Below are positions 30,798 through 62,664 of a stretch of 64,000 nucleotides of DNA, piece after piece. How positions within the stretch are numbered: the first letter of the stretch is position 1; every line of letters starts with the position of its first letter. Source of the DNA: Luteolibacter sp. (GTDB lineage Bacteria > Verrucomicrobiota > Verrucomicrobiia > Verrucomicrobiales > Akkermansiaceae); NCBI GenBank assembly GCA_030696085.1, contig JAUYNL010000088.1:1-64000 (forward strand), given 5' to 3'. The notes under the pieces were generated by a model, which made no database searches, had not been told where the DNA came from, and saw nothing but the letters and a program-made list of their open reading frames with translations. Position numbers and translations under genes: made by a program.

Positions 30798-30818
30798 AGC
30801 CTGTAACGACTTTCCGCC

Positions 30819-33800
30819 ATGTCCCTCAAATCCCTCGAACATCTGGTTTCCAAGCAGGCCTTCGAAAGCCTGCCTGCGAACTGGAACAGCTTCGACCTCG
30901 CACGCTTCTCGCGAGGCAAGGCGCTTTGGAAATACCAGCAGGATGCGCTCAAGGGTGCCTTGTCGGTACTTTGGAAATACTACGAGGATTTTGAAGATTA
31001 CGTGCCGGGCGCTGACTTGTATGCTGATCGCGAGCGCCGTGAGAAGCTCGCTTCCTGGTATGAGCACGGCATGCACCTCTCGCCGAAGGAACGGAAGTCA
31101 CTCAACCTCTCGCTGAAAAAGGCCAAGCGCCCGCTCCGCCTGCTGCTGGAAGACTATTTCCCATTGGACGAAGAGGAGCCGATCATCAACTTCCAGTCCA
31201 TCTGCAACCGCATGGGATTCTGGATGGCCACCGGAAGCGGGAAAACCATCGTGCTGGTCAAGCTGCTGGAACTGCTTCACCACCTCATGCGGCGTGAGGA
31301 AATCCCCAGGAACGACATTCTGATGCTCACGCACCGTGAGGATCTCATCGAACAATTCCGCAAGACGGTGGATGAATTCAACGGGGCTCCCGATGCTCCC
31401 GTTCACATCGAGCTTTGCGAACTTCGGGAATATCCGGAAGTCAAACGGGATCATCCCGGCGGTTTGCTTGGCAGGGATTCGACGTTGCGCGTGTTTTACT
31501 ATCGCTCGGACAACCTCAGCGACGAGCACAAGGAACGGATCGTCGATTTCCGCAACTACGACAACGACGGACGCTGGTATGTCCTGCTCGACGAAGCGCA
31601 CAAGGGCGATTCCGCCGATTCCAAGCGCAAGCACCTGTATGCCATCCTGACGAGGCAGGGTTTCCTTTTCAATTTCTCCGCCACTTTCACCGACGTTCTC
31701 GATCTTGCGACGACGGTCTCGAACTTCAATCTTTCCGAATTCATCGGTCAGGGCTACGGCAAACACATCGCGATTCTAAAACAAGAATTGGCCGCCTTCA
31801 AAAAGCGCGGCGGAGGTGGTGACTACACCGACGATGAAAAGCGCAAGGTCGTCGCCAAGAGCATGATTCTTCTGGCCTTCACGGCTGCCAAGGTCCGCGA
31901 GGCAAGGCAGGTGTCCGGAGATCCCGGATTCTACCACCACCCCATGCTTCTAACTCTCGTCAATTCGGTGAACACCGAGGATGCCGACCTGAAAATCTAC
32001 TTCGAGCAGATCCTCGCCATCGGCCGCGGCCAGGTTCCGGACAAGGTTTGGAAAGAGGCGAAAGATGAACTCTGGGAAGAGTTGAAGGACGAGCCGGAAT
32101 TCCTTTATGAGGATCGGAGGAAAGTCTCCATCACCAAGGCTGATCTCGACAAGATCGGCGAGAAGGATGTTTGGAAAGAGGTCTATAACTTCGATGGCAA
32201 GCAAGGCGGGGACATCGAAGTCCTGGTCCGCCCCGGCAACAAGCAGGAGTTGGCTTTCAAGATGAAGACTTCCGCACGGCCGTTTGCGCTAATTCGCATC
32301 GGTGACGTAACCGGCTGGATCAAAGAGAAGCTGAGCGGTTTCGACTTCATCGAAACTCTGGAAACCGAGAGTTTTTTCAAGACGCTGAACGATGCGGATT
32401 CCCCTTTCAACATCCTGATGGGGTCCCGGAGTTTCTACGAGGGTTGGGATTCGAACCGCCCGAACGTCTTGAATTTCGTGAACATCGGCACTGGCGACGA
32501 CGCCAAGAAGTTCATCCTCCAATCGGTAGGACGCGGTGTCCGCGTTCAAAGCTGGAAGGGCGACCGGCGTCGATTCGAAGAACTTCACGAGGAATTCGAT
32601 GACCGTCAGAAATTCCGCGTGATCAAGCCCGTGACAGTGTATCCGGAAACGCTTTATGTTCTCGGAACCAATCGCGACGCGCTCAACGTCGTCCTTCAGG
32701 AACTCAAAAAGGAAAAACCGGCAACGCAGCAGATCCTGCAGCTTCAACTCAACCCCTCAGTGAGCGGCGGGCGTTTGTTGGTTCCCGAATATCGGGATCG
32801 CAACCACGTTCTCATGGAAGATCGGACTCCCGCAAAGTTCGAAATCGCCGGCGAGGACATTTCGCTTTTGACCGGTTACGCGGATTCAATCGTCGATGAC
32901 CGGGTCATGTTGTGCGCCCATGGTGCCGACGGTGAGAAGGTGGATTACCTTCGCAAGAGTCTTGAGGATCAGGAAACCTACTACGGCACTTATGGCCGGA
33001 GACCATTCCGAAATCTTGAGGTCATGGTCGGCCGCGTGATGGGGTATTTTGGATTGCGTTCCAAGGAACTCTCCCGCATCCGCGATCTGGCGGATCAGGA
33101 CATCGTGCATTTCAAGCACATGTCCGTGGACAAGGAACATGCTGAAGCGATCCAAAGGAAGATTGATCAGGTCTTGAGATCTCAAACTCCCGCGGGACTA
33201 AAGGCCAAGGAAACCATCGAAAAACGTTACAAGCAGGGTGAATTGGATTTGGACGGGCTCGTCCGCGAGATGGAAGATCAGGCTCTGACAGGACGTGCCA
33301 ACTACAACGAAGAGCTTGGAATCGAATACCTGGCCCAACATTATTACCTCCCAACGCTCTACTCCACGAAAGGGCGCAAGCTCGACTACCTCCGGCACAT
33401 CATCGACGTTGAAAGTGAGACCAAATTTCTTGGATCACTTCAGGAACACCTGAAAAAACCAGACGCCAAGATCAAGGATATGGATTGGTGGATGTTCGCC
33501 AAACTCGACCAGTATCTCGACGTTCCTTTCGTTCCCTACTACAGTCCATCACAGAACCGGATGGCCAAGTTCATTCCCGACTTCATCTTTTGGGCGCGCA
33601 AAGGTTCCCACTATCGAATCCTGTTCGTGGATCCGAAAGGCATGGAAAATCAGGACTGGGAAAGAAAAGCAGAAGGTTTCTGCGAGCATTTTGAGGAGAA
33701 GGGGAAACCACGGGTATTCGTCATCGACGACATGGAAGTTGAAGTTCACCTCTGCCTCTTTACGAGGGACAGAAATCCTGCTTCTGAGGGCGGGTACAAA

Positions 33801-33893
33801 CGCTTCTGGACAGATTCCATTCCCTCAGCACTAGAATCCTTGATCGCGATTTCAACGAAAAGCTCCTCAACTTCCTCACCGGCCAGGTCATGA
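30819..33893 (+). CDS. res: Type III restriction subunit (Res), DEAD-like helicase/nuclease
   Basis: 1024 residues. The SF2 helicase core has motif I ATGSGKT (about 137-143), DEAH-box LLDEAHKGDS (about 258) and FSATFTD (motif III). Motif V/VI features include SFYEGWDSNRPNV and QSVGRGVR. A PD-(D/E)xK nuclease follows near residues 918-941, as FIPDFIFW then ILFVDPKG. Res translocates or slides on DNA from unmethylated sites and cuts with Mod. The final 13-14 codons read through the right gatB repeat in another frame, so the native C-terminus was probably replaced at integration. The catalytic domains look complete. It follows mod by 21 bp. Confidence 0.9.
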   Translation: MSLKSLEHLVSKQAFESLPANWNSFDLARFSRGKALWKYQQDALKGALSVLWKYYEDFEDYVPGADLYADRERREKLASWYEHGMHLSPKERKSLNLSLKKAKRPLRLLLEDYFPLDEEEPIINFQSICNRMGFWMATGSGKTIVLVKLLELLHHLMRREEIPRNDILMLTHREDLIEQFRKTVDEFNGAPDAPVHIELCELREYPEVKRDHPGGLLGRDSTLRVFYYRSDNLSDEHKERIVDFRNYDNDGRWYVLLDEAHKGDSADSKRKHLYAILTRQGFLFNFSATFTDVLDLATTVSNFNLSEFIGQGYGKHIAILKQELAAFKKRGGGGDYTDDEKRKVVAKSMILLAFTAAKVREARQVSGDPGFYHHPMLLTLVNSVNTEDADLKIYFEQILAIGRGQVPDKVWKEAKDELWEELKDEPEFLYEDRRKVSITKADLDKIGEKDVWKEVYNFDGKQGGDIEVLVRPGNKQELAFKMKTSARPFALIRIGDVTGWIKEKLSGFDFIETLETESFFKTLNDADSPFNILMGSRSFYEGWDSNRPNVLNFVNIGTGDDAKKFILQSVGRGVRVQSWKGDRRRFEELHEEFDDRQKFRVIKPVTVYPETLYVLGTNRDALNVVLQELKKEKPATQQILQLQLNPSVSGGRLLVPEYRDRNHVLMEDRTPAKFEIAGEDISLLTGYADSIVDDRVMLCAHGADGEKVDYLRKSLEDQETYYGTYGRRPFRNLEVMVGRVMGYFGLRSKELSRIRDLADQDIVHFKHMSVDKEHAEAIQRKIDQVLRSQTPAGLKAKETIEKRYKQGELDLDGLVREMEDQALTGRANYNEELGIEYLAQHYYLPTLYSTKGRKLDYLRHIIDVESETKFLGSLQEHLKKPDAKIKDMDWWMFAKLDQYLDVPFVPYYSPSQNRMAKFIPDFIFWARKGSHYRILFVDPKGMENQDWERKAEGFCEHFEEKGKPRVFVIDDMEVEVHLCLFTRDRNPASEGGYKRFWTDSIPSALESLIAISTKSSSTSSPARS

Positions 33894-33958
33894 AGGCCGC
33901 CTCCACCAAACCAAATCCGAAACAAGTGACCGAACTGCTGCGAGCACGGCTCCTGTAG
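33853..33958 (+). pseudogene. Duplicated 3' fragment of gatB (right copy of 104-bp direct repeat)
   Basis: This 106-bp remnant encodes only the last about 34 residues of GatB and a TAG stop, and it cannot be a functional gene. It matches 26175-26278 at 103 of 104 positions. The res gene ends inside it in a different frame, and an inverted repeat begins at its last few bases. Confidence 0.95.
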
Positions 33959-34040
33959 CGGCGGTCTATGACCGCCGATGCGCATGAAAATCCCAACGGA
34001 CAATATATAATCCAGCGACGGTCATAGACCGCCGCTACAG
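33953..34040. repeat. Palindromic (REP-like) element
   Basis: Two 25-bp arms (33953-33977 and 34016-34040) are inverted complements with one mismatch, separated by 38 bp. The left arm overlaps the stop of the gatB remnant. It is probably a dispersed REP/MITE-type repeat or a terminator-like hairpin. No other copy was found in this window by eye. Confidence 0.9.
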
Positions 34041-34051
34041 TTCAAATAATC

Positions 34052-34585
34052 ATGATCCCCGACTTCGCCCAATCACTTTACGACCGCTTCGAGCGCGAGG
34101 GCATTCCCTTGCTTCTGGCAGGCGCTTGGGCGGTATGCCATCATGGCTATTCACGCCTCACTCTTGATGTGGATTGGGTTTGCCCGCGCTCCAAGGAAGC
34201 CAGGGCCGTTGCCTTGATGGCCAATCCGCATTTCACCAAACGCACCGATGGCATGGCATCCCGCTTCAAGAACCGAAAACATCCCGCGCTGCCCTACGTC
34301 GATTTGATCTGGGTGGACGATTCCACTTTCGAAAGAATGGCGGAACCAGATCCTGATCCGGATAAAGATGGAAATCTGAATTTCCGGGTCATCAGTTTCC
34401 GCGCACTTCGCGCCATGAAGCTACATGCGCTCAAGGATGGAAAAACACGAGACCACAAGGATCTTCTGGATATTCGCCTGCTCTTAAGGTATGGCCACTC
34501 CCGCATCTCCGAAGAAGAATTGAAATCCATGTGCGAACGCTACGCGGAACCGGGAGCCTACGAAAAAATCAAATCCGAAGCATGA
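34052..34585 (+). CDS. Nucleotidyltransferase-like protein
   Basis: A 177-residue protein. The fold signature is LLLAGAWAVCHHGYSRLT followed by the acidic pair LDVDW, a variant of the GG...DxD arrangement of MNT-type enzymes; the first Gly of the usual GG pair is Ala (AGAWAV). A third acidic residue lies in PYVDLIWVDD. The C-terminus KDGKTRDHKDLLDIRLLLRYG matches helices typical of this group. Its stop overlaps the start of the 66-residue gene by 4 bp (ATGA), and that gene in turn overlaps prfA, making one translationally coupled chain. It is the third such gene in the window. Function is unknown. Confidence 0.75.
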   Translation: MIPDFAQSLYDRFEREGIPLLLAGAWAVCHHGYSRLTLDVDWVCPRSKEARAVALMANPHFTKRTDGMASRFKNRKHPALPYVDLIWVDDSTFERMAEPDPDPDKDGNLNFRVISFRALRAMKLHALKDGKTRDHKDLLDIRLLLRYGHSRISEEELKSMCERYAEPGAYEKIKSEA

Positions 34586-37961: not shown

Positions 37962-40900
37962 TCAGGAAACCGCCTTTCTCACCACTGCCATCGCCCCGGT
38001 GAGCAGGCAAAGCAGGACGGCGAGCCAGGCGAAGCCGCCGCCGGCGCGCTTGAGCTTGAGCTCAATCATCATCGGGCGCCCGCCATCCACCTGCACGCTG
38101 CGGCCGAAGCTCATTACGGTGCCGCGCTCGGGCAGCGTGACATCCAGCGCGGCGGGCGCGGGTTCGGCGGCGAGTTGCTGGGTGACGATGCGGTTGGCGA
38201 TCTCCTTGAGCGCGGCGTTTTCATCGGCGGTGTTGCCTTCGAGGAACCGGTCGAATTGTCTGGGATCGTAGTTGAAGTTTCCCTGAAGGACGGGGTTCAC
38301 CTCCGCGGCGCGGTCGAGCTGGGGATTTTGCGCCTGGCCGGGTGCGGCGAGACGGTTGTCGATCACGAGCTTCTGGCGGCGGGTGTTCAGTCCGAGCACC
38401 GCCTGTTGGGTCTTGAGTTGGCGGAGTTGCACACGCGCGTCCTCGCCGGATGCGGCGTCGAGCTGGCCCTGGTTCACCGCGTTTCCGAGGGCGAGGCTGG
38501 CTTTTTCCTGATCCCCGGCTTCGAGCCAGGCGTTGGCTTGATCCAACAAGGCCACCGCGCTCTTCGCATCGCTCTTGCGCTTGCTGAGCACGAACGATTG
38601 ATAGTCCTCCAGGCGGAACGAACCCATGGCCTGTTGTTGTTTCAAATCGAAATCCCCGCCGTGATCTGCTAGACGCCAACCTTCCGGGACGAGCACGCGC
38701 CATGTTAGATTTTCCATCGGCACATCGAGCACCGGGCCTTCGAGATTCCTGCCGCCGCGCAAGGCCGCGGAATAAACAAAGCGCACTTCGGTGGATTTCC
38801 CGACTTCCGGCGATGGGAACACATGGAACAACCAATCCGTGCCCTCGCGGACGAGCGTCGCGCCCTCATCGTTGACGAAGACATTGAACAACTCCGCCCG
38901 CTCCGGGAGCTTGAGCCGCAAGGTGCATTTGCCGACGACCTGCATCTTCATGTTCACGGCTGTTAGAGCATCGCCGCCGGGCGAGAGCAAGGTGGTGAGC
39001 GTGCCTTCGGAAACCCGGAGTTTCCGCAGGCCGGCGAGCTCGTGGCGTTTCAGGATCACCGGCAGCGGTCCTTCGGGATCGGCCACGCGGAAGGCCATGG
39101 TCGGAGCCACGCTGCCCGCGCTGCGACCGAACGTGGATTGCACCACCGCCCAGTCGGTGCGCTGCCAGCCGCGCGGCAACACGCCGGCTTCCAGTTCCAG
39201 GCGGCCACCCGCCCTTACTACGGCGAAGTAGGAAATCTGGCGCACGTTTTCCAGGACGAGGGGTTCCACCAACTCGCCGCCGTTCTCCTTGCCGGGGCGC
39301 TGGTATTCCAATTCAACATCCGCCTCGCCCGCGATCCCGCGTTGGAAACGGATTTCATAGAGACCGGTTTCCACTTCGACCAGATCCGCGACGGAGGATC
39401 CCGTGGCGCGCACGGTTTTCGCCGAATCCGGATCGAGTCCGGGAATCCGCACGCGCTGGGATTTCACCGCAGCGTTTTCGATGCGATAGCCGATGTGGAC
39501 CCGCGAAAGCAACTGGCCTTCGCGGATCGTCGCATCATGAAACACCTTCGCCGTCACCCAGGGATCGAGGCGGCTGATCGAAAGCCCGAGTGCCCAATCA
39601 CTCTGCAACAATCGATAGGCCAGAGCTCCCGGTTTCGCCGCCGCCCGCGACGTTTCCTTCGGCCCGTCCGCCAGCTCGCGCGGATCGACCTGCGAGACGT
39701 TCTTGCGATCCACCGCGCGCACTTGAAAACCGCGCTCCGGCACAATCGTTAGAATTCCCGTTTCGCGGGACGCATCGCGCAGGCTGAGACGCGGCACCTG
39801 CCACTTCGCCTGGGCTCCGGCCGGGCGGCCGGTGAGCGTGAGGCTGAAATCGCGCCGCCCCATGGTTTTTCCTGATAGATGGAAGGTGACCACCCGTTTG
39901 CCAGCGATCCTGCCTTCGGTCCAATGACTCAGCCCTTCGCCGCTCGCACTTTCGATTTCCAGGCCTTCCGGCACATCGAGATCGAGGCGGAAGACTCCGG
40001 AACGCGTGATCGTCACCGCAAGGTCCGTAGCCACCACCAGCCGGTCCTCGCCCAGTGAAACCAACTGCCAGGACTCCGCCCGCAGTTCGGGGGCCACGGC
40101 CGTCACCTTGAGACGCGCCTGCACGGCACCCGCACCATAGCGGAACGCGTGTTGCAGCAGCGCCAGCGGCTGGCCGTCCTTGTTGCGCGGCAGCAACTTG
40201 CCGGTGAAATCCTCCGGATTCACGCGCGAAAGCCCCTCGACCTCCACCGCTTCCGGCTGCACTTCCTCGCCGAAGGCGATTCCTAACAACCCGACCTCGC
40301 CCGCGGCACCCGCCACGCGGACGGGTTCCAGTACGAGCTCCATCGGCAAGGCCCCGGCTCCGCGCTGGGTCTCGATGGTGAACGCGAATCCCACATTCTG
40401 CGCGGGCTCCACGGTCATCCGGAGTTCGTGTTTTTCCGGATCAAAGCGCCATGCGCCGACCGGTCCATCGACCACATCGCTCACGGTGAAACCCGCTGGA
40501 ATCTTCATCGTCAGCGATGTCACCCGGCCTTGCGCGGGGCGGATCGTCACGAGATGCCTGCCATTCACCACGCCCGGCCCCGGAAGAAACAGGTTGGATG
40601 CCTCGGCGAAAAACTTCGTTTCCTCGGTGCCCGCATCACGTTGTTTCGGCCGGGCCTGGATGGTCACGGGATCGACCGGACCCAACACCAACAGCGCACC
40701 GCTTTCACCGGCCTTGAGCCCCGGAAGCGCCTGGATTTTCGCAGCGCGATCCGAGAAAAACTCCCAGCCGCCCTGATCCCAGCGCAGCGTCACCCGCCGC
40801 ATCGCCGCCGGGCCGCCGGGGAGTTCCCAGCCTTTCAACGGATCGGCCAGAGGCATTTCAAAAACCGCCTTGCCGGTCATGCGGCCGGCGCCATCGGCGA

Positions 40901-43900
40901 TCAAACCATAGGCGTTTTTCCCCTCCCAGCGCATCTTGACCGCGCGCAGCCCGCCTCCCTCGAAACGGCTCAGCACCGCCGGTTCACGCAGTAACAGAAA
41001 CCGATCCCCCGTCTCGCCGCGCAGCGTCACATCCACCGATCCATACAGCCGGCCATCGCGGATCTGCCAGTCGTGAATCATGGATTCCGCGGGTTTCATC
41101 GTGGAAAACTCCGCCGCCCGGGAATTCCACGGCATCATGCAGGTGAGCGCCACCGCCGCGGCCACGGCGTCCATGGTTTTCGGTTTCCGCATGCCACGCA
41201 GCGCCTGATAGATGCGCGGCACCAGCCAGAACAATCCGACCAGCGCAATGATGCCGAAGAACAATGCCGCGCCGCCGCGGATGGATAGAAACGCGGCCAC
41301 CACCAGCACCAGCCCGCAACCGAGCCACCAACGGTCCCACCGGTACAATCCCCGTAGCGCCGCCACGGTTCCCAACACAAAACCCAGCCACACGCCCCAT
41401 CCGCTGCGCGCCAGCCATGCCGGAACATTGCCGACCTCCACCGATACCTCGCCACCCGCCGCCACCACCGGTGCGGCGTATTCCAGAACCGCCGAACTGG
41501 CACGGCTCGTCATCGCCGCCGACAGACCAAGCGCCACGGCTATGACCACGAAAACCAGGCCCGCCACCAGTGAGAGTGTTTTTCTAACACCCGACGGATT
41601 TCCCGCCCCTAACAACACTGCGCAAAGTCCCGCGAAAAACAGAATCGCGCCGCCTTCGCGTTTTCTCGCCTGCCATTCCCAACCGCTCTCGGCGAGCACC
41701 GGTTTCACCAAATCCGCCGTGCCACCGCGCGGCACGAGCTGGCGGCCTTCGTCGCCGGAGATCGTCCACTCGCCGATCACCACCGGCGCATCAAGTTTCG
41801 GCGCGACCAGCCGCGGATGGCCGGGCTTTTCGGCACGCGCGCCATAGCGGAAGGAAACCTCCACCGCTTGATTCGGATCGAGCCGCGAGGGCAGCGGCAC
41901 CAGCGTTTCGCCGCCATCGGCGCGGGCGTTCACCGGTTCGCCATCGACCTTCGCCTCCCACAGGATCGCGCCTTTCGGGAACACCATGCGCAGCGCGCTG
42001 CGGCCGCGGGTTTTCACGAATATCCGCGCATCGGTCACCCATTGTCCGTCGCGCGAAATCCGGCTGGTGAGCTTTTGGAAATCCACCACCTGGCCCACGG
42101 TTTCGCCAGGTTCGAACCACTCGATCTCCATGCCGATCTTGAAATCCCGCGCCGTGTATTGCCATGCGCCGAGCGTGGGCGCGCTGCTGAGCAGACGGAA
42201 CTCGGTGGGCAGCTCGCTGGGATCGATCGCCAACAAAGCTCCCTCGCTGGTGGACTTGTGATTCACCTGCAGCGGGCTCACCACCTGCACGAATCCGCGC
42301 TCACCCTGCACGCCGAGCGGACTCACATCGCCAGGCGAAATTTTTCCGCCGCGCGAACTCATCGGTTGTTCGAAGGTGAGCAGCACCGTGCCCGCGCCAA
42401 GCACCGGACGCGACAGCGGAACGATCACCGTATTCCCATCACGCCGCCAGTCGCGACCGACATTCTGGCCCGTGACGTCGATGTTGCCGATGCCCTCGGG
42501 CACCAAGATTCTCCAATCCGTCGCAGGCGAGCCGACGACGAAAAAGTTCATCAACACGCTGCCATAGACCGCACCGGCCTTGAGCGAATAGAGATGAAAC
42601 ACGTCCGCCTGGATGCTTTGTCCGAGCGCCTCCACTGTTAGACCGACCGACCACTTGTCTTCGCGCAAACGGAACGCCTGTTGCAGGCCGTTCGTCTTCT
42701 TCGGGAAAAACGTGATCGGCACCTCGGCGACACCGGCGGTCTTGCCGACCGTGAGACGATAACCCGCCGCAGCCACCGCGCCGATGTATCCGCGGTGCGA
42801 TTTCACGCCCGGGAAGCCGAGCGGCTGAAGCTCCCAAGCACCGGCCTTCGCCGCCTCGTTTTTCTCCAGCCGCACGCTCACGAGCTGGCGGTTGCTCACT
42901 GCTTGTTTGAAGAGGATCTTGAGTTTGCGTTTCCCGTCCTTCACGTCGCCGGCCACCGCGTAATCCGCGACTTCCGCGCCGTGCACCGAGGCCACCGCGT
43001 GATCGGCGGGAATTTCCATTTCCCACTCGCGCAATGGCGCTTCGCGGATGTCGAGTTCGAGGTCCGCGGAAATCCGGCGGTCGGTCTCCGCGATTTCATA
43101 GACCGTCACTTCCGTGAGGCCGACTTCCGGCAGCACCTGGTTCGCGTTGACCGCGTAGCCGTATTCCGCCGAGGGAAAGCGATAGACAAACACCTGGCGG
43201 AGTTTCTCATCCACGCCGCCGGGGAATTGGCCGGGCGCGAGCTGGATCAAGCCCTTGGCATCCGCCACTTCGATCCGCACCGCGCCATCGTTCGCCACAC
43301 GAAGCCATCCGCTGTGACGCAACGCGCCGACTGGTGCCATGCGCAGCGCCTCCGCCTTCACCGGGAATCCGCCGAGCGCGGCCTGTGCCTCGATGACCAC
43401 CCGCTCCGCGCCTTCGATCGGCCGGCTGAGTTTCACTTCGAGACTGCGTTTTCCGGCGGCTTCCTTCACATTCCAGCCGAGCACCGAATCCCCGGAAACG
43501 GAAAGCACCTCGCCCGGGCCACTCAGTGTTAGATCCAACCCGGCGAGTTTCCCTTGCAGCACGCGCAGGTCCACCAGGGTCATCTGGCGCAGCAGTCCGC
43601 TGCCCACGCGCACATCGGTGGTTTCCGTGCTGGAGAAAAACAACGAACCATCCGCCACCTTGTCGGCGACGCGCCAGGCCATCGCACCCGATCCGCTGGC
43701 CGGGAGGAATCCGCGCCATGATTTCTCATGAAACTGCGGCACGACCGCGAGGTGTTTGTCGAAATCCACATCGCCCGCCAGTCCGTCGATCCTCACCGGC
43801 ACCACCACGCCCGCCGGAAGATCGAAGCCTAGAATGCGCCAATCGCCTTTGCGGACCACCGGCACCTCGAAGCTCACATCCACGGGAAATTCCCCTTCGC

Positions 43901-44723
43901 GCTCGGCGATGAGATCGTAGTTCCAGACATCGCCGCTTTTCCGCAAAGCGACGTGCCAGCCATCGCCCGAAACACCATCGGCGAGCGCCGCGCCGCCGCC
44001 TAACAATTCCACCGCAGAACCCATTCCCGCGGAACGGGCGGTGCCGGTGAGGCGGAAGGAAACGCTGTTGCCATCCGGCGAGACCTTTCCTGATAGATTC
44101 GAGTTCATCACTTCCAAACCACGGGAATCGGAGCCGGCGGGCCCGATCTTCATGTTCACCAGGGCATCGCCGGAACCGACGAACTTGCGGTTCAGCGCGC
44201 CTTCCACCGGAACCAGTCCCTCCACCAGCGTCATCTTGAGATCCACGCCTGGATCGGCATTCACATGCACCATCACTGAAAATCCGGTGGCCGGGCCGGG
44301 CCGCGGCAGCAGCAATCCTGCCTTCTCCTTCTCCACCTTCGAGCGGGTCTTTACCAGCACTTCGAGTTCCGCAGGAAACTTCGCCTCCACCAGCGCGGGC
44401 CGCACATCCAGGAAACGAGCGCCGTTTTCCGCCGCCCGCACCGACCAATCCCGCAGACCCGCACCGCTGACTTCCGTCACCTCCCCCGCCCCGCCGAGAC
44501 CGAGCGTCAGGGTTTCGGCTTTGCCCTGGTGGATGCGGAACTTGATTTTTTGTTCGCTGGTGACGGTTTCCAAAGCGACCTGCGCGTTCACCTCCGCCGT
44601 GGCGGAAAAGAACAACGGAGCCTCCTTCGGAGCCTTCGCCCACGGGACGAGGATCATGCGTTCATCCGCCTCCTGGGCGGTGAGAAGGCCCGTGAGGGCG
44701 AGGAGCAGCAGTGTCGTTTTCAT
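37962..44723 (-). CDS. Giant secreted/membrane protein of unknown function
   Basis: 2253 residues. It starts with a Sec signal peptide (MKTTLLLLALTGLLTAQEA) and continues as about 1000 residues of beta-rich extracytoplasmic sequence. Several transmembrane helices follow at about 1020-1180 (GGAILFFAGLCAVLLGAG and others). A further hydrophobic segment ending WNSRAAEF (about 1183-1203) looks like a second signal peptide. About 1000 more beta-rich residues and a C-terminal helix (FAWLAVLLCLLTGAMAVV) end it. The two halves could be fused secreted proteins. It is the third gene of the operon sigma factor, VWA protein, this gene. I do not recognise a catalytic domain. Related giant proteins occur in Verrucomicrobiota and Planctomycetota, in my recollection, without known function. 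Confidence 0.72.
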   Translation of the reverse strand: MKTTLLLLALTGLLTAQEADERMILVPWAKAPKEAPLFFSATAEVNAQVALETVTSEQKIKFRIHQGKAETLTLGLGGAGEVTEVSGAGLRDWSVRAAENGARFLDVRPALVEAKFPAELEVLVKTRSKVEKEKAGLLLPRPGPATGFSVMVHVNADPGVDLKMTLVEGLVPVEGALNRKFVGSGDALVNMKIGPAGSDSRGLEVMNSNLSGKVSPDGNSVSFRLTGTARSAGMGSAVELLGGGAALADGVSGDGWHVALRKSGDVWNYDLIAEREGEFPVDVSFEVPVVRKGDWRILGFDLPAGVVVPVRIDGLAGDVDFDKHLAVVPQFHEKSWRGFLPASGSGAMAWRVADKVADGSLFFSSTETTDVRVGSGLLRQMTLVDLRVLQGKLAGLDLTLSGPGEVLSVSGDSVLGWNVKEAAGKRSLEVKLSRPIEGAERVVIEAQAALGGFPVKAEALRMAPVGALRHSGWLRVANDGAVRIEVADAKGLIQLAPGQFPGGVDEKLRQVFVYRFPSAEYGYAVNANQVLPEVGLTEVTVYEIAETDRRISADLELDIREAPLREWEMEIPADHAVASVHGAEVADYAVAGDVKDGKRKLKILFKQAVSNRQLVSVRLEKNEAAKAGAWELQPLGFPGVKSHRGYIGAVAAAGYRLTVGKTAGVAEVPITFFPKKTNGLQQAFRLREDKWSVGLTVEALGQSIQADVFHLYSLKAGAVYGSVLMNFFVVGSPATDWRILVPEGIGNIDVTGQNVGRDWRRDGNTVIVPLSRPVLGAGTVLLTFEQPMSSRGGKISPGDVSPLGVQGERGFVQVVSPLQVNHKSTSEGALLAIDPSELPTEFRLLSSAPTLGAWQYTARDFKIGMEIEWFEPGETVGQVVDFQKLTSRISRDGQWVTDARIFVKTRGRSALRMVFPKGAILWEAKVDGEPVNARADGGETLVPLPSRLDPNQAVEVSFRYGARAEKPGHPRLVAPKLDAPVVIGEWTISGDEGRQLVPRGGTADLVKPVLAESGWEWQARKREGGAILFFAGLCAVLLGAGNPSGVRKTLSLVAGLVFVVIAVALGLSAAMTSRASSAVLEYAAPVVAAGGEVSVEVGNVPAWLARSGWGVWLGFVLGTVAALRGLYRWDRWWLGCGLVLVVAAFLSIRGGAALFFGIIALVGLFWLVPRIYQALRGMRKPKTMDAVAAAVALTCMMPWNSRAAEFSTMKPAESMIHDWQIRDGRLYGSVDVTLRGETGDRFLLLREPAVLSRFEGGGLRAVKMRWEGKNAYGLIADGAGRMTGKAVFEMPLADPLKGWELPGGPAAMRRVTLRWDQGGWEFFSDRAAKIQALPGLKAGESGALLVLGPVDPVTIQARPKQRDAGTEETKFFAEASNLFLPGPGVVNGRHLVTIRPAQGRVTSLTMKIPAGFTVSDVVDGPVGAWRFDPEKHELRMTVEPAQNVGFAFTIETQRGAGALPMELVLEPVRVAGAAGEVGLLGIAFGEEVQPEAVEVEGLSRVNPEDFTGKLLPRNKDGQPLALLQHAFRYGAGAVQARLKVTAVAPELRAESWQLVSLGEDRLVVATDLAVTITRSGVFRLDLDVPEGLEIESASGEGLSHWTEGRIAGKRVVTFHLSGKTMGRRDFSLTLTGRPAGAQAKWQVPRLSLRDASRETGILTIVPERGFQVRAVDRKNVSQVDPRELADGPKETSRAAAKPGALAYRLLQSDWALGLSISRLDPWVTAKVFHDATIREGQLLSRVHIGYRIENAAVKSQRVRIPGLDPDSAKTVRATGSSVADLVEVETGLYEIRFQRGIAGEADVELEYQRPGKENGGELVEPLVLENVRQISYFAVVRAGGRLELEAGVLPRGWQRTDWAVVQSTFGRSAGSVAPTMAFRVADPEGPLPVILKRHELAGLRKLRVSEGTLTTLLSPGGDALTAVNMKMQVVGKCTLRLKLPERAELFNVFVNDEGATLVREGTDWLFHVFPSPEVGKSTEVRFVYSAALRGGRNLEGPVLDVPMENLTWRVLVPEGWRLADHGGDFDLKQQQAMGSFRLEDYQSFVLSKRKSDAKSAVALLDQANAWLEAGDQEKASLALGNAVNQGQLDAASGEDARVQLRQLKTQQAVLGLNTRRQKLVIDNRLAAPGQAQNPQLDRAAEVNPVLQGNFNYDPRQFDRFLEGNTADENAALKEIANRIVTQQLAAEPAPAALDVTLPERGTVMSFGRSVQVDGGRPMMIELKLKRAGGGFAWLAVLLCLLTGAMAVVRKAVS

Positions 44724-44740
44724 GGGATGTTTGGTTTCTT

Positions 44741-44784
44741 CAGATCAGTCAGATCCGTCTGATCAGACGGATCTGACTGATCTG
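44741..44784. promoter_or_regulatory. 44-bp perfect palindrome between VWA and giant genes
   Basis: Both strands read the same over 44 bases, with 22-bp arms and no loop, composed of short GATC-containing repeats. It lies in the 88-bp gap between the VWA gene and the 2253-residue gene. As RNA it would form a stable hairpin that could attenuate or stabilise the downstream transcript. A dispersed-repeat origin is also possible. Confidence 0.85.
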
Positions 44785-44811
44785 TTTTGTGGGTAAAAGT
44801 CGCGTGAAGTT

Positions 44812-47499
44812 TCACTTCAAGGCATCCAGCATGCGCAGCATTTCGCCGACGCGGCCGGTGTTGCCGTAGAAGCCTTTGACGTTGGCGCACGGATCGGCGA
44901 GTTGCTGGAAGTCGATGGCATCGGCGAGCGGGCCGCCTTTGAGTTTTTCCGCGGCGAGCATGGAAAGCACCGCGAGCTGCATCGATGGCGTGGCGCGGTC
45001 GATGGCGGGAGCGCTGCTGTCGTGCGGGATCGTCCAAGTTCGCTCGACCATTTGGGCGCTGGCGGCGTCGCGGAAACGCACGCTCACCTCGCCGAGTTCG
45101 CCGTTGCCGCCCGGCAATGGTTCGACCTGATAGATGGCGACACCGGCCTCTTCGGCGGCGAGTTCGGCGGCGTCCACGGCATCGTTGCGGAAGTCCTCGG
45201 TTTTCAGGCGGTCCTTTTCGAAGCCGATCAACTTGTAACGTCCGACACGCTCCGGGTTGAAATGCACCTGCACCTTCACGTTCTCTGCGGCGGGACGGAA
45301 GGCCCCGGCAAGTTGTTTGGCGAAGTTGTCATCCGCGCCCTTGCCGACGACGTAGTAGCGCCCGTTGCCATTGCGGGCGAGCTCGCCTAACAACTCGTCG
45401 TTCAGACCATCCGCGGCGATGCCGGCGATGTCGAAGGAGATGCCTTTCTGGCGCAGGACTTTGACTCGTTCCGCGAGGCGGAGGGGATCGGCGTTGCCGA
45501 GATTGGCCGCGCCATCGGTGAAGAGCACGATGCGGTTCTGCGCTCCGGCGAGCTGGTTGCGGTCCGCCATTTGCTCCGCGAGTTGGATCGCTTCCTCCAG
45601 ATTGGTGCCGCCCTCGCTGGCGGATTGGTTCACGAGCTCGGCGAGTTTATTCGCCTGATTCCCCGGCATGCTGTCGGCGAGCAAACGCGGCGTTCTGGAA
45701 AAACCCACGACGGAAACCGAGTCTTTTTCCGTCAGCAATCCGGCAAGTCCTGCCAACGCATTTTCCATCGCCGCGCGGCGGTCCTCGCGCACCATCGAGC
45801 CGGATTGATCGACTAACAAGGTGAGGCGCAGCGCTTGCGATGCGGAGCGCCCGGCGGCGGCGGTCTTCAATGCGACGCGCACCAGATTGCGGCCGGGAAT
45901 CACCGGATGGGCGGATTGTTCGATGGCCACCGCGACCGGTTCGCCGGCGGACGGCGCGGGATCGCCGTAGTCCACGGCGTTGTAAAATTGCTCCACCTTG
46001 ATGCCCGCGGGATCGGGTTGCTCGCCCTTGGCCAGCGCGGCTTGCGCGATCTGGAACGAGGCGTCGCTGATATTGAGGGAGAAGGTGGAATAAGGATCTT
46101 CCGTGGCGGAAATTTCCTCCATCAGCTTGGCGAGATCGATCTCCGGCGTTGCGGGCTTCGATTGGGCAACCTCAAGACGTCCCAAAGGAGCCATGGGTGC
46201 TGCGGGAGTTAGCGGAATTGCGGCAGAAGAGGAATCGGGCAATATCGAGGAAGCAGGTTCCATCGGATACTGTAGTTCCCCGCCGAAAAGGCTGGTTTCC
46301 GCCTTATTCTGCTTTATCGCTGACTCCTCGGCCGGGGCGGGAGCGTTATGCTGAATGTCGCTCTCATACTGGAGCGCCATGGATTCCCCAGCCTCAAGCA
46401 ATTCGTCCTCAGCTCGGGCGGCTTTCGCCATCAGGAGTGGTTGCGCCACGGCAGCTGCCTGCGTCTGCTCTTCCAATTTCTTTTCAGCAGGTTGCAGCCG
46501 CTCCATGGCGATTCCGCTCGAATCGCCAACCACCGGGTCAAGCGCACGTTCCGAGCCGGATGATGGGGCTGTTTGGTTTTTGGTCGCAACTCCGCCACCG
46601 GCGGCTCCCCGTGTGGCGGTTTCGTCCCTAACGGCAGGTTTTCTGGCAGGTGCGGGGGCCGAGCTGGCTTCCGCGAAAAAACGACCGGATTCATTTCGCG
46701 CAAGTTGATCGGCATCGTCGTCACCGAGCACCATCCCGGCGACTCTTCGCCGGGCACCGAGGGAACCTGACGAAACAGCTCCCTCCTGCTTCGCGAGCTC
46801 CTCAACCGGGCCTGCCACATTATTTCCGGCAAATGAATCCTCATCGAACTTCGCGGACTGCTCGGCTTGAGCCATGACTTGATCCTTGTTAGCAGGCAGA
46901 CTGGAACCGTCTGCTGCACCGTCCACAGGCGTTTCCAGACCGGGAAGAATGATCGGCTTCGGAGTTCCTTCAATGAGCTCTGGGGGAAACGTGGTTTCGA
47001 GACGTTGCATGCGGCCTTCCGATATGGAATCTGATGATTCGGCGGCCGCCAGTTCGTTCTGTCGCGCGAGGCTCCCCGTTTCTATCAGATCCGCTTTTTT
47101 TCGCTGCCTAACCACCATGGGAGCCAGCAAACCGGCGATGATGACGGTTAGGATCAAACACGCGGCGATGGCGAGAAAGGCGCGCCGTCCGCCGCGGCGG
47201 ATGCGGATTTCCTTCTGCTCCTCCAGGCGGACCGGTTGTTCCTCGCCGAAGATATCATCGAGCACCTTGCGTTTTTCCGGCGGGAGTTTCCATCCATCAT
47301 CCGGCTGGGCACCTTCCGCTTCCGTTAGCAGGCCGTGGAGAGCGCGCATGCGGCGGCGGAAGACGAGCAACTCCGGGCGTTCCTCACAAAGGCGCTCCAA
47401 CTCCGCGGCCTCGAAAGCAGAGGCTTCGCCAAGCACCCAGGCCACGATCCGGGCTTCGACCGGTTCGTCGCCGATGGTGGTGAATGGGGTGTCAGACAT
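44812..47499 (-). CDS. VWA-domain membrane protein with anti-sigma-like N-terminus (YfbK-like)
   Basis: 895 residues. The cytoplasmic N-terminus (1-105) resembles anti-sigma regions. One transmembrane helix at about 107-130 (FLAIAACLILTVIIAGLLAP) is followed by a long low-complexity linker. A YfbK-type N-terminal domain (EDPYSTFSLNISDASFQIA) begins near residue 470. The von Willebrand A domain follows, with MIDAS LLVDQSGSM (about 562) and LFTDGAANLG, and then a DUF3520-like C-terminus. The gene follows the ECF sigma factor after 39 bp and precedes the giant gene. I infer membrane anti-sigma control of the partner sigma factor, with a metal-dependent adhesion domain outside. Confidence 0.82.
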   Translation of the reverse strand: MSDTPFTTIGDEPVEARIVAWVLGEASAFEAAELERLCEERPELLVFRRRMRALHGLLTEAEGAQPDDGWKLPPEKRKVLDDIFGEEQPVRLEEQKEIRIRRGGRRAFLAIAACLILTVIIAGLLAPMVVRQRKKADLIETGSLARQNELAAAESSDSISEGRMQRLETTFPPELIEGTPKPIILPGLETPVDGAADGSSLPANKDQVMAQAEQSAKFDEDSFAGNNVAGPVEELAKQEGAVSSGSLGARRRVAGMVLGDDDADQLARNESGRFFAEASSAPAPARKPAVRDETATRGAAGGGVATKNQTAPSSGSERALDPVVGDSSGIAMERLQPAEKKLEEQTQAAAVAQPLLMAKAARAEDELLEAGESMALQYESDIQHNAPAPAEESAIKQNKAETSLFGGELQYPMEPASSILPDSSSAAIPLTPAAPMAPLGRLEVAQSKPATPEIDLAKLMEEISATEDPYSTFSLNISDASFQIAQAALAKGEQPDPAGIKVEQFYNAVDYGDPAPSAGEPVAVAIEQSAHPVIPGRNLVRVALKTAAAGRSASQALRLTLLVDQSGSMVREDRRAAMENALAGLAGLLTEKDSVSVVGFSRTPRLLADSMPGNQANKLAELVNQSASEGGTNLEEAIQLAEQMADRNQLAGAQNRIVLFTDGAANLGNADPLRLAERVKVLRQKGISFDIAGIAADGLNDELLGELARNGNGRYYVVGKGADDNFAKQLAGAFRPAAENVKVQVHFNPERVGRYKLIGFEKDRLKTEDFRNDAVDAAELAAEEAGVAIYQVEPLPGGNGELGEVSVRFRDAASAQMVERTWTIPHDSSAPAIDRATPSMQLAVLSMLAAEKLKGGPLADAIDFQQLADPCANVKGFYGNTGRVGEMLRMLDALK

Positions 47500-47538
47500 G
47501 GGGATTTGAAATTGGAAATGTGAGATTTGAAATGGGGA

Positions 47539-48123
47539 TCACCCCTCAGGGCTTTCGATACCGAGCCTTCTGAGCGAGTCGGCTAGATGTTTGAGCGCGT
47601 GATGGAGCTTGTAGCCGACGTTGCCGACGCTGAGGCCGGTGCGCTGGCTGATTTGGTCGTATTTGAGGTTTTCGTGGTATTTCAGGGCGATGAGCTGGCG
47701 GTCGGCGGGGTCGAGTTCGGAAACGAGGAGTTGCAGGGTGCCGATGGTTTCGAGGTGGCCGAGCGTTTGCTCGGGATCGGGCGCGTCGCCGGCGAGTTCG
47801 TGGATGAATTCGGTGTGGATTTCGCGTTGGTGGTCGCGGAGGTGGTTGAGGGCGAGATTGCGGATGGAGCGGAAAAGCCAGGCGCGGGGATTGGTGACGT
47901 CTTCCCAGTGGGCGTGGAGTTTGAGAAAGGCTTCCTGGACGAGGTCTTCGGCGGTTTCCCTCTGGCCGACGATGCCGAAGGCGTAGCGGAGCAATGGGGA
48001 CTCCTCCGTTTCGAAGACCTGCCGGAGTGTTGGCTTTTCCTCCATGGTGGTGTTTCGAAACGGGATCACCGGATTGCGTCCGGCATCAGCCCTCGGATGG
48101 GCGCTGGCGGTCAGGGTTTCCAT
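47539..48123 (-). CDS. ECF-type RNA polymerase sigma factor (first of operon)
   Basis: 194 residues. Region 2 is seen as LLRYAFGIVGQRETAEDLVQEAFLKL with the following NPRAWLFRSIRNLALNHLRD. Region 4 is ELDPADRQLIALKYHENLKYDQISQRTGLSVGNVGYKLHHALKHL, the helix-turn-helix that contacts the -35. No region 1 or 3 is present, so it is a group 4 (ECF) factor. The start may be ATG 48045, since the first 26 residues are poorly conserved-looking. The gene is followed by the VWA protein with an anti-sigma-like N-terminus. A probable ECF-type promoter lies just upstream. Confidence 0.88.
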   Translation of the reverse strand: METLTASAHPRADAGRNPVIPFRNTTMEEKPTLRQVFETEESPLLRYAFGIVGQRETAEDLVQEAFLKLHAHWEDVTNPRAWLFRSIRNLALNHLRDHQREIHTEFIHELAGDAPDPEQTLGHLETIGTLQLLVSELDPADRQLIALKYHENLKYDQISQRTGLSVGNVGYKLHHALKHLADSLRRLGIESPEG

Positions 48124-48153: not shown

Positions 48154-48181
48154 ACTATAAAGACACAAGCCGGGCCGTTCC
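48154..48181 (-). promoter_or_regulatory. Candidate ECF-type promoter of the sigma operon
   Basis: On the minus strand GGAAC (48177-48181), a typical ECF -35 core, is followed after 17 bp by TATAGT (48154-48159). The sigma gene ATG begins about 30 bp further on. Self-activation by the operon's own sigma factor would be usual for this class. The -10 is sigma-70-like, so this is only a candidate. Confidence 0.4.
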
Positions 48182-48208
48182 CTTAGGAAAAAACCCACAA
48201 AAAATCCC

Positions 48209-49126: not shown

Positions 49127-49504
49127 ATGCGTTTCCTGATATTTTTCAGCGGTGCGGCGATTCTGGCCCTCGGTGCGGAGGGGATGCGCGTGCTCGGGCG
49201 GCAGGACGGTCTGGCATTTCTCCAGGGCGCGCTCACGCTCGGCGGCGGCTTCATCATCTGCGGCTTGTTTTCGCTGAAAATGAAATGGCAGGGCATCACC
49301 GGCACCGGCGTGCTCGCCCTGTTGGGAACCGCGCGGGGGCTCTTCAACATCCCGGATCTGTCGCGTTTCCTCACCGGAGAGCGTGAGCGTGGAGCGGCGC
49401 CGGTCATGGAGTTCGGCGTCACTCTGGTGTGCCTGTTCCTGCTGCTGCGGGTGCTGGGCTCGCTGCATCGGGAACGGGTTCGACGGATGCTGGAGGAGGA
49501 GTGA
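49127..49504 (+). CDS. Small integral membrane protein
   Basis: 125 residues with four hydrophobic helices, beginning [17 protein letters not shown] and ending in a basic/acidic tail [12 protein letters not shown]. No known family is recognised. Its last 86 bases overlap, on the opposite strand, the 3' end of the GH75-like gene, so the two genes are convergent with shared coding sequence. It is divergent from the aminotransferase gene (78-bp gap). Function is unknown. Confidence 0.6.
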
Positions 49505-50924
49505 GCACGGCGGGCGGCTCGGGCTTCGGCAGCAGATCCTGCCAGGCATGGAGCTGATAGCCTTCACCCAGACCGCCGATATCGCCTAGCAGCTCATGGC
49601 AGCGCTGCCTCCACTTTTCATAATCCGGCGGGCCTTTCTCCGCCTCACGGCTGCCCGTGAAAACCAGATAGGTCACCTTCAGATCCGATACCGGCCGGCT
49701 ATAGGGCGATGCCTTCGGGTTGAGTTCCCTGGCCATCCGCAGCGAGGCCTCGCCCACCTTGAAGGTCGGGCCGCCGTCGCCGACGATCGATGGATAGACC
49801 TTGCCGCCATGCACCACCACGGCGTAGTCGCCTACTTTCGGCGCGAAGGGATCGCTCGAAGTCAATAGATTCACCGGGATGACGATGAAGGGATCATACT
49901 CAGCGATCAGGAAACTGCGTGATTTCAGATCAGCGATGCCGCGTTTCAGATAGGCGATGCGCTCGCGAAGCCATGTCTTCCGATCAGCGGTGGTCGCACG
50001 GTCGGCGAGTTCCTTTTCGCCCGCCTCCACCCGCTTTTCCCAGCCGGATATCATCGGATTGGCGGTCGGCGTGCGCTTGCTCCAGCCATAACTCGTGAAC
50101 GGCTGATAGTGGGTGGAATTGATGATCGAGTCCGGCATCACCGGCAGGCGGTCGCCATCCGATCCGTCGGAAACGACATCCATTTCCGCCTGCATGAAGA
50201 ACACCGGTTTGCCAGACGGTGCGCGGATCTGGAGGATGGTCTCGCAGTCATATACATTGTGCTTGGTGAGCAGTTCGTTGAGCGAATGCGCATCGCGGCG
50301 GACGCGCCCGGCCTTGTTGTCATAGAGTTTTTGAAACCAGCCGGAAACCTCGGCCTTTTCGATCAGCGCGGGCAAACCGGGGAGGATTTTCGCCAGATCC
50401 GGATTGGAGGATTCCAGTTCCGCCATCGTTTTCGCCGGGACGGGCAGCCGCAGCGATAGCTGGTAAGACGCCGTGTAGCTCGAATCATCCACGCGTTCCT
50501 TCGAGGCGATGCCGCCCTTGTCGATCTTCACCTCGCTCTTGAAGGGGATGCCGGAGCGCAGCTTGCGGACATCCGTCACCATTCCCAAGGCTGGTTCCCG
50601 CACAGGCTCTGGGATAGTCGCGGCCGCAGCGGCTTTCGCCTCTTTTTCGGCGGCGGCTTTGTTCAGCGCCTCCATTTCACGCGCCAGTTCCTGCTCCATC
50701 TCGATGCGGAGCCGGGACTCGATCTGTCGCCGGATATCCTCCTCGTCCGGTGCCTGTTCCACTGGTTGCGGTGCGAAAACCTCCTTCAACCCGCGTTTCA
50801 TCTTTCCTGCATACCCGGAGGCGAGCCAGGCGATCACGATCACCGCCAGATAGAACAGATCCCGAATCCCGAACCATGAGAGAAGGGATTTCCGGCGTCT
50901 GCCTGCATTTTGCGAATCGTTCAT
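49419..50924 (-). CDS. GH75 chitosanase-like membrane-anchored protein
   Basis: 501 residues. One transmembrane helix at about 20-40 ([18 protein letters not shown]) and a charged coiled-coil-like stretch ([20 protein letters not shown]) precede a domain with GH75 chitosanase-like features. These are [16 protein letters not shown], a FIVIPVN strand, [20 protein letters not shown] and then [12 protein letters not shown]. The Asp of VGD and the Glu of GEAS fit the acidic catalytic pair of the family. The C-terminus is a Pro/Ala-rich tail. It may cleave chitosan or an envelope glycan, or be a non-catalytic relative. It is divergent from the glycosyltransferase gene. Confidence 0.7.
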
Positions 50925-61872: not shown

Positions 61873-62664
61873 GTGTCAGCAAAATTCACCTTCCGGGATC
61901 TCCTGCGTGATCTCCGCGATGAACTCGTCCAGCGGCTCCCCGCCGTCGCGGAACTGCCCGACCGCCCCATCGGCCCGACGACCGCCACCCTTCCCGATGG
62001 CAGCCAGCGGGTATTCAAGTTCGTCAAGATCGCCTGCAACGTCGCCTCCCCGCTCGGCAGCGAGGAAAACCAGATCCTCCCGCTCCTCCGCCGCTGGTTC
62101 GGCGAGCCCGTCGCCGTCGCCACTCCCTTGCGAATCGTGGAAGCCAGCCCCGAAACCGGGGAAAACGAGCATCGCGAAAACCGCGACCTCCCCGGCTTCA
62201 CCGAGGCCCCCGCCGCCAAGGAAAAGTTCACCCGCCTCGTCCCCGTTTACAGCCTCGAAGCCGCCGCCGGCCTCTGGGGCCCGGAAAGCAGCCCCGAGGA
62301 AATCGGCTGGGCCGTGGCCCCGGGCACCGCCATCAAACCCGGCATGTTCATCGCCCGCGTCCGCGGCTACTCGATGGAGCCGAAGATCAAGGACGGCTCC
62401 TGGAACCTCTTCCGCCCCTGCCCGCAAGGCTCCCGCGAGGGTCGCATCGTCCTCGTCCAGTTCAATTCCATCGGCGACCCGGAAAACGGCGACCGCTTCA
62501 CCGTGAAAAAATACCATTCCGCCAAAACCGTCTCCGAAGAAGCCTGGCAGCATGACGGCATCGAACTCCTCCCCCTGAACCCGGACTACGAACCCATCCC
62601 CGTCGCCACCCACGAAGGCCCGGAAATGGTGGTGGTCGGCGAATGGGTGGCATCCATCGACTGA
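61873..62664 (+). CDS. S24 (LexA/UmuD-type) peptidase-like protein
   Basis: 263 residues from GTG 61873. The C-terminal half contains the Ser-Lys dyad of S24 peptidases: RVRGYSMEPKIKDGSW (Ser near 167) and FTVKKYHSA (Lys near 212). This autoproteolytic fold is shared by LexA, UmuD and phage repressors. The N-terminal about 110 residues carry no clear helix-turn-helix, so it is not a typical repressor. A GxAG-type cleavage site is not obvious (YSLEAAAGLWG may be one). It starts 15 bp after the metal ATPase gene and converges on the damaged methyltransferase. A link to that methyltransferase is only from position. Confidence 0.8.
   Translation: MSAKFTFRDLLRDLRDELVQRLPAVAELPDRPIGPTTATLPDGSQRVFKFVKIACNVASPLGSEENQILPLLRRWFGEPVAVATPLRIVEASPETGENEHRENRDLPGFTEAPAAKEKFTRLVPVYSLEAAAGLWGPESSPEEIGWAVAPGTAIKPGMFIARVRGYSMEPKIKDGSWNLFRPCPQGSREGRIVLVQFNSIGDPENGDRFTVKKYHSAKTVSEEAWQHDGIELLPLNPDYEPIPVATHEGPEMVVVGEWVASID

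Follow-up and report, generated by a model that had tools for sequence, protein, structure and literature searches.

A putative self-regulating ECF sigma factor/anti-sigma factor operon with a YfbK-type VWA module and a giant membrane-anchored protein in Luteolibacter sp.

The pairing of an extracytoplasmic function (ECF) sigma factor with an anti-sigma factor in the membrane is already well known, for instance from the RpoE-RseA and SigW-RsiW systems with class I transmembrane (TM) anti-sigma factors, zf-HC2/ZAS forms included. The present analysis concerns three genes located in a 64,000-nucleotide stretch of Luteolibacter sp. DNA (contig JAUYNL010000088.1, positions 1 to 64,000, from the 3.77 Mb assembly GCA_030696085.1; hereafter the window), encoding an ECF sigma factor, a membrane protein with a VWA module and a giant protein. 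The VWA module is of the type found in E. coli YfbK; to our knowledge no role is known for that protein, nor for YfbK-type modules elsewhere. Bacteroidota, moreover, possess anti-sigma factors with a long outward reach, Dma spanning to the outer membrane (PMC13088901). We favour, with some reserve, the reading that the three genes are a self-regulating ECF sigma/transmembrane anti-sigma operon which watches the cell envelope and whose output includes protease inhibitors.

Gene order, sigma factor and promoter element

The initial annotation had described three same-strand genes with short gaps, and the open reading frames (ORFs) were found at these places on the minus strand, with 39 bp between the sigma and VWA genes and 88 bp between the VWA and giant genes. 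It had also proposed a comparison with other Verrucomicrobiota, which bore the arrangement out. With the giant as query, relatives were found in 49 out of 99 related genomes, and with a profile (E up to 1e-10) in 56 out of 288 genomes from the phylum as a whole. Among named genomes, 179 stretches encode a giant relative; 14 of the best 80 of these 179 belong to Planctomycetota and the rest to Verrucomicrobiota. Among viral contigs, 27 stretches matched a sequence pattern and no giant relative was present among them. After short duplicates (L092-L101) and repeated giants had been dropped, 102 distinct giant loci were available, and the 78 with at least 6 kb upstream were counted for gene order. 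Sigma and VWA genes were located upstream of the giant on the same strand in 76 of these 78 distinct loci, in Verrucomicrobiota and Planctomycetota, and every one of the 10 Planctomycetota loci with this much upstream DNA contained all three genes. The 24 giants with less than 6 kb upstream were left out; 17 of them show the VWA gene and six show both genes.

The 194-amino-acid product of the first gene carries Sigma70_r2 (residues 38-100, 5e-16) and r4_2 (residues 130-180, 1e-12) matches in Pfam and a match above cut-off to NCBIfam TIGR02937. As in ECF (group IV) sigma factors, only the sigma2 and sigma4 domains are present and an anti-sigma factor is encoded alongside, the VWA gene adjoining in the 76 loci mentioned above.

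An over-represented spaced word, CTAA-N18-GTCT, was found in 40 of the 78 sigma upstream regions, while the best shuffled word reached 6. With a position matrix, the element TTTTTCYAAGRAT-N12-GTGTCTT was detected at fixed spacing in 75 of the 78 regions, in both phyla. Because the sequences are related, these 75 cannot be taken as independent cases; the matrix had, moreover, been derived from these very regions. The regions without the element were L078, L132 and L134, the last two with over-long start calls. The newly found consensus before the sigma gene, CYAAGR-N14-GTGTCTT, often lies about 28 nt ahead of the called start codon. In the window, the site at 48160-48190, which falls outside the coordinates of the initial annotation, obtained the top position weight matrix (PWM) score of both strands (25.5). 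Scores of at least 11 were reached upstream of none of 107 VWA genes and none of 123 giant genes (both sets hold near-duplicates), so no internal promoters were detected, and likewise upstream of none of the eight paralogous sigma genes described below. Canonical ECF promoters (GAAC/AAC...CGT) were also considered for the sigma upstream regions and were rejected, as they occurred only at chance level. The conservation of the element before the sigma gene points to probable autoregulation, and a sigma/anti-sigma operon with autoregulation can be regarded as highly probable.

Simpler arrangements also occur. Eight paralogue loci (L364-L371), from relatives within the same genus or order, were examined, and in each the sigma gene immediately precedes a gene for a YfbK-module protein, with about 30% identity in the module and with no giant. 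The anti-sigma-domain model matched four of the eight proteins, and in seven a hydrophobic stretch resembling a helix is located close to the N-terminus. Another three loci (L089, L090 and L091) carry, behind the sigma gene, a gene for an anti-sigma-domain protein without VWA match, and no giant was present in the stretch examined. Since sigma/YfbK-module pairs without a giant exist, the three-gene operon varies a known sigma/anti-sigma kind. The earlier statement that no characterised example is known agrees with the literature searched, which did not extend to the main ECF classification and in which none was found, but has to be qualified by these eight pairs.

The VWA protein and the giant protein

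Pfam analysis of the second gene product revealed vWF_A (residues 463-541), VWA (559-719) and YfbK_C (735-794), all above cut-off, although the last match spans profile positions 4-63 of 184 only. These three domains, together with a metal ion-dependent adhesion site (MIDAS), assign the protein to the YfbK family. The MIDAS had been recognised in the initial annotation, and its DxSGS motif and final Asp are kept in 102 out of 102 VWA proteins, while its Thr is kept in 98 (missing from L190, L195, L198 and L199). A search by sequence for solved structures of the VWA protein gave a single marginal match (E 0.036).

An anti-sigma-like start of the same protein had also been suggested. In the window protein the N-terminus gave no zf-HC2 match in Pfam and lacks the HxxxCxxC zinc ligands of the ZAS subgroup. 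Seven out of nine distant orthologues from other classes, however, carry zf-HC2 above cut-off at this place (L198 was below it and L189 had none), and the window-type N-terminus could be aligned in register with zf-HC2 profiles over 113 columns (hhalign probability 96.9%, E 1.7e-10, in a single comparison). One helix, as previously described, was confirmed by hydropathy at about residues 103-133. A zf-HC2-homologous N-terminal domain with one TM helix behind it is the layout of class I anti-sigma factors. By sequence, the VWA protein very likely belongs to these transmembrane anti-sigma factors, and it is predicted to bind the sigma factor.

Behind the helix follows a tether rich in Ala, Glu, Ser, Pro and Gly. 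Among 72 proteins, the distance from the end of the anti-sigma domain to the start of the VWA module ranges from 203 to 1293 residues, with a median of 519. Given the single inner-membrane helix, the VWA module is predicted to lie in the periplasm. The initial annotation had proposed a surface-sensing system with an external VWA domain that would control the sigma factor; nothing places the module at the cell surface, and sensing is probably periplasmic. A tether of this length range would be long enough to span the periplasm, and dual-membrane anti-sigma factors exist (PMC13088901), so that the module could be carried through the outer membrane to an external ligand, as in the Dma anti-sigma factors of Bacteroidota. 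With no outer-membrane domain among the Pfam matches of the VWA protein, and with a TM cluster and C-terminal helix in its presumed partner, the giant, as expected for an inner-membrane protein, such surface sensing appears very improbable.

The giant gave no Pfam or NCBIfam match at E up to 1. Homology was found between its two halves (blastp E 5e-21; hhalign 99.9%). The initial annotation had assigned it two long extracytoplasmic halves, and this holds given the hydropathy, which revealed a TM cluster at residues 1023-1175 and a C-terminal TM helix. AlphaFold models of the first and second halves had a mean predicted local distance difference test (pLDDT) score of 90 and 89.5, but a predicted template modelling (pTM) score of 0.45 and 0.52. 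The models can thus be trusted for each domain taken singly but not for the way the domains are placed with respect to one another, and the pTM scores count against our interpretation.

Fold comparison returned M1 aminopeptidase N-terminal domains with Z 11.3-13.7 and a root-mean-square deviation (rmsd) of 2.7-4.2 over 144-160 residues, and the beta saddle of that domain is present. The best single-domain M1 match had Z 13.7 and rmsd 2.7 over 144 residues. For the first half, the M1 N-domain gave Z 11.3-12.2 and ribophorin I Z 15 with a large rmsd. Ribophorin I, together with the M1 domain the best likeness among solved structures, reached Z 12.5-15.3 at an overall rmsd of 19-22, which is why most weight is given to the single-domain M1 matches. 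A likeness to integrin alpha, complement C5 and the MG domain of alpha-2-macroglobulin was considered and discarded as generic beta-sandwich, with low TM scores and large rmsd. A function as metalloprotease was rejected as well, HExxH being absent from the giant; a regular expression detected this motif in one out of 96 giants. On the basis of the models, the giant is probably a non-catalytic, membrane-anchored array of beta-domains, with ten domains as an estimate. In other families (L079-L083), distant giant relatives of about 1200 amino acids, half the size, and of 1500-2900 amino acids are encoded next to each other, and neither a sigma gene nor a VWA gene was detected adjoining them.

That the giant is the physical partner of the VWA protein can be given an even chance. 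The two proteins might instead form an envelope scaffold or assembly machine, in which the VWA module would serve as a chaperone-like, metal-dependent adaptor and the sigma factor would only adjust the supply of both to demand, with no external signal. The size and conservation of the giant, its lack of a catalytic zinc site, the operon's own element and the occurrence of YfbK-type modules also without a giant are consistent with this, whereas sensors are usually built in just this way, with VWA fused directly to an anti-sigma domain via one TM helix, and protease inhibitor genes are found behind sites elsewhere than in the operon. A pure scaffold role is considered rather unlikely.

Candidate targets and proposed mechanism

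In the 99 relatives, the pattern TTCYAAGRW-N13-GNGTCWT was found at 69 sites, against 8 for the reversed pattern. Eighteen sites precede a sigma gene (16 by ORF match and two by position, the G072 site among the latter), 17 precede alpha-2-macroglobulin genes, five toroid genes, four DUF4139 genes and one a serpin gene; the families were identified by Pfam on one or two members each and for the rest by similarity. The candidate toroid targets (L261, L264, L274, L278 and L289), from five genomes, are TM proteins of 430-520 amino acids, for which the squalene-cyclase-like toroid domain was assigned by Pfam on L261, and the alpha-2-macroglobulin L262 contains MG2, A2M, TED, bait-region and bMG10 domains. 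In the window genome, the sole site of a near-identical pattern (at most one mismatch) lies 10 nt ahead of the start of an alpha-2-macroglobulin gene (G000:C105:29699-35797), the product of which is 74% identical to L262.

Alpha-2-macroglobulin starts were also scored with the matrix, which had been trained on operon promoters only. The loci examined came from 30 of 66 genomes with a match, and four with the start off the contig were dropped. Each of the 18 sigma-positive genomes whose contig includes the gene start had an upstream score of at least 11.8; in shuffled DNA, this level was reached about 0.0009 times in 350 nt. On these grounds alpha-2-macroglobulin is predicted to be a target of this sigma factor, which we hold to be fairly probable. 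The initial annotation had proposed to look for the regulon through the promoter motif; the element does occur before sigma and alpha-2-macroglobulin genes, but before the latter it persists in some genomes in which this sigma factor was not detected.

Several results weigh against the proposed sigma-controlled envelope operon and its regulon. At the level of the operon, the giants of L188 and L194 have no sigma or VWA gene detected upstream. An early ECF criterion, a -35 AAC combined with a -10 CGT, does not apply here, where CYAAG and GTGTC are present instead; as the defining features were narrowed in later versions (PMC8103513), it no longer decides membership. Among the 69 sites, 24 are unexplained (G001:C70 counted among them), 13 of these lying inside long frames. 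The window genome has one site against two in the reversed control, and a looser pattern added one further site, C39:4289, with no ORF found behind it. Outside close kin, the element was present at two of seven alpha-2-macroglobulin upstream stretches, several of them with estimated starts. A Planctomycete pattern gave seven sites against six in the control (13 genomes); five of the seven are operon promoters and the other two have no telling neighbour. Seven genomes were classed as sigma-negative (no sigma factor at E 1e-25), with G024 (57% complete, with a giant) excluded. Their alpha-2-macroglobulin scores were 5.3, 7.4, 12.4, 13.8, 17.9, 25.0 and 28.2, the strong ones belonging to G022 (17.9), G013 (25.0) and G043 (28.2). 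The difference from sigma-positive genomes is weak (Mann-Whitney p 0.08), as is that in target sites per genome (15/35 vs 5/25 by hand tally, Fisher p 0.056). Another sigma factor may read the alpha-2-macroglobulin element. The L194 genome is small, at about 2 Mb.

In that case the sigma/anti-sigma pair would still be real and autoregulated, but would mainly control itself and the giant as a structural envelope protein, and a second ECF sigma factor with similar specificity would drive the alpha-2-macroglobulin-type genes. Apart from the three genomes with strong elements, this is suggested by target sites that mostly end in GTGTCAT while operon sites mostly end in GTGTCTT, and by the distant operon-bearing genomes checked, the majority of which are without the element at alpha-2-macroglobulin. 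The constant presence of the element in the 18 sigma-positive genomes examined argues the other way, and it is absent before the eight paralogous VWA-linked sigma genes. The weakest scores (5.3 and 7.4) belong to sigma-negative genomes, and G013 retains a giant fragment, so that the loss there looks recent. Control by a second sigma factor is accordingly seen as unlikely, if still worth weighing.

For the self-regulating envelope-watching operon, the following sequence of events can be proposed. At rest, judging from homology, the cytoplasmic domain of the 895-amino-acid protein would keep the sigma factor at the membrane. Its single helix would bear a long, probably flexible periplasmic tether with the metal-binding VWA module at the tip, and this module would most likely dock on the giant encoded by the neighbouring gene, acting as an inner-membrane scaffold. 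Envelope damage or proteolysis could then alter or break the VWA-giant arrangement, upon which the anti-sigma domain would be set free or broken down, with regulated intramembrane proteolysis as the probable route. The freed sigma factor would transcribe from CYAAGR-N14-GTGTCWT promoters, its own operon included. Its predicted targets are alpha-2-macroglobulin in the window's genus and some kin, and in relatives serpin, DUF4139 and membrane-anchored toroid proteins.

One version of this scheme is that the tether serves as protease bait. Any protease entering the periplasm would cut the tether, much as proteases cleave the alpha-2-macroglobulin bait region, and thereby release the sigma factor, alpha-2-macroglobulin and serpin would be produced as traps, and tether, VWA module and giant would be renewed. 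This idea is speculative and we regard it as improbable; if true, it would represent a bacterial alarm for protease intrusion in which sensor and effector share one principle.

Genomic surroundings and relation to known systems

The features of the operon are listed in Table 1. An aminotransferase gene (Pfam) is located upstream of the sigma gene on the same strand, and two genes upstream of the sigma gene a protein with a GH75 chitosanase-like domain, above the Pfam cut-off, is encoded at 49419-50924. The gap between the VWA and giant genes contains a 44-bp perfect palindrome with 22-bp arms (44741-44784). Perfect arms of at least 10 were found in the first 120 nt of two out of 71 longer VWA-giant gaps of other loci, and L141 has a looser stretch that resembles the palindrome by eye. 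It may form an mRNA hairpin that lowers expression of the giant, although its conservation is not general. Farther away, an OLD-like ATPase, a DNA methylase, a ResIII helicase and an AbiEii-like nucleotidyltransferase (Pfam) are clustered at 26350-34585, possibly a defence island, and an MmeI/Eco57I-type DNA methyltransferase is encoded at 61879-63942.

Table 1. Features of the three-gene operon, in window coordinates.
Feature	Position	Strand	Basis
Operon promoter element (-35-like CTAAG 48182-48186; -10-like GTGTCTT 48160-48166)	48160-48190	minus	PWM 25.5
ECF sigma gene	47539-48123	minus	194 amino acids, regions 2 and 4 only
Anti-sigma/YfbK-type VWA membrane protein gene	44812-47499	minus	895 amino acids
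Predicted cytoplasmic anti-sigma domain, about residues 1-97, zinc-less zf-HC2 relative	47209-47499	minus	zf-HC2 in orthologues and hhalign
TM helix region, residues 103-133	47101-47193	minus	hydropathy 2.86
Low-complexity, probably disordered periplasmic tether, residues 134-462	46114-47100	minus	composition by eye and count
vWF_A, VWA (MIDAS) and YfbK_C module, residues 463-794	45118-46113	minus	Pfam, MIDAS
Giant membrane-anchored protein gene	37962-44723	minus	2253 amino acids
First periplasmic half, residues 21-1015, beta-sandwich domain array	41679-44663	minus	AlphaFold model, fold matches
TM cluster between halves, about residues 1023-1200	41124-41657	minus	hydropathy (cluster at 1023-1175)
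Second periplasmic half, residues 1206-2226, homologous to first, helical insertion near end	38046-41108	minus	sequence homology, model, fold matches
C-terminal TM helix, residues 2227-2253	37965-38045	minus	hydropathy

In the literature, nothing recognisable was found on a VWA anti-sigma factor of such build, the standard ECF classification, in which the sigma factor may already have a group number, being outside this search. The giant, and sigma control of bacterial alpha-2-macroglobulin in Verrucomicrobiota or Planctomycetota, were likewise not found, and the available excerpts of PMC12826043 and PMC8999054 contain nothing on the sigma/VWA/giant build. The present results supply a promoter and an output, both open to test, for a signalling operon of three genes in Verrucomicrobiota and Planctomycetota, phyla with poorly known signalling. 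They tie YfbK-type VWA modules to transcription control, give a hint at the regulation of bacterial alpha-2-macroglobulin, and supply a fold and a context for a giant protein family without Pfam match.

The operon resembles RpoE-RseA and SigW-RsiW in its two-domain sigma factor, the adjoining anti-sigma gene, the single TM helix and the conserved element ahead of the sigma gene. It differs from them in the zinc ligands, which were lost in the window lineage, in the very long tether and the VWA module, in the giant third gene that is nearly always present, and in a -35 element with CYAAG and not AAC. All three Pfam domains of the E. coli YfbK family (PF12450, VWA and PF12034) are present in the same order, but in the window the module is fused to an anti-sigma domain and a TM helix. 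Like the giant-free pairs L364-L371, the operon has its sigma gene immediately ahead of the gene for a YfbK-module protein; unlike them, it has the giant and the CYAAG-GTGTC element. In contrast to Dma, no outer-membrane part was seen by Pfam and the VWA module ends the chain of the window protein. The beta-domain fold of the giant is like that of ribophorin I (OST1) and the M1 aminopeptidase N-terminal domain, whereas the giant is bacterial and TM-anchored, with an estimated ten tandem domains and no HExxH. Finally, the alpha-2-macroglobulin of E. coli (YfhM/ECAM) is often linked to pbp1C, while here the link is to an ECF-type promoter element.

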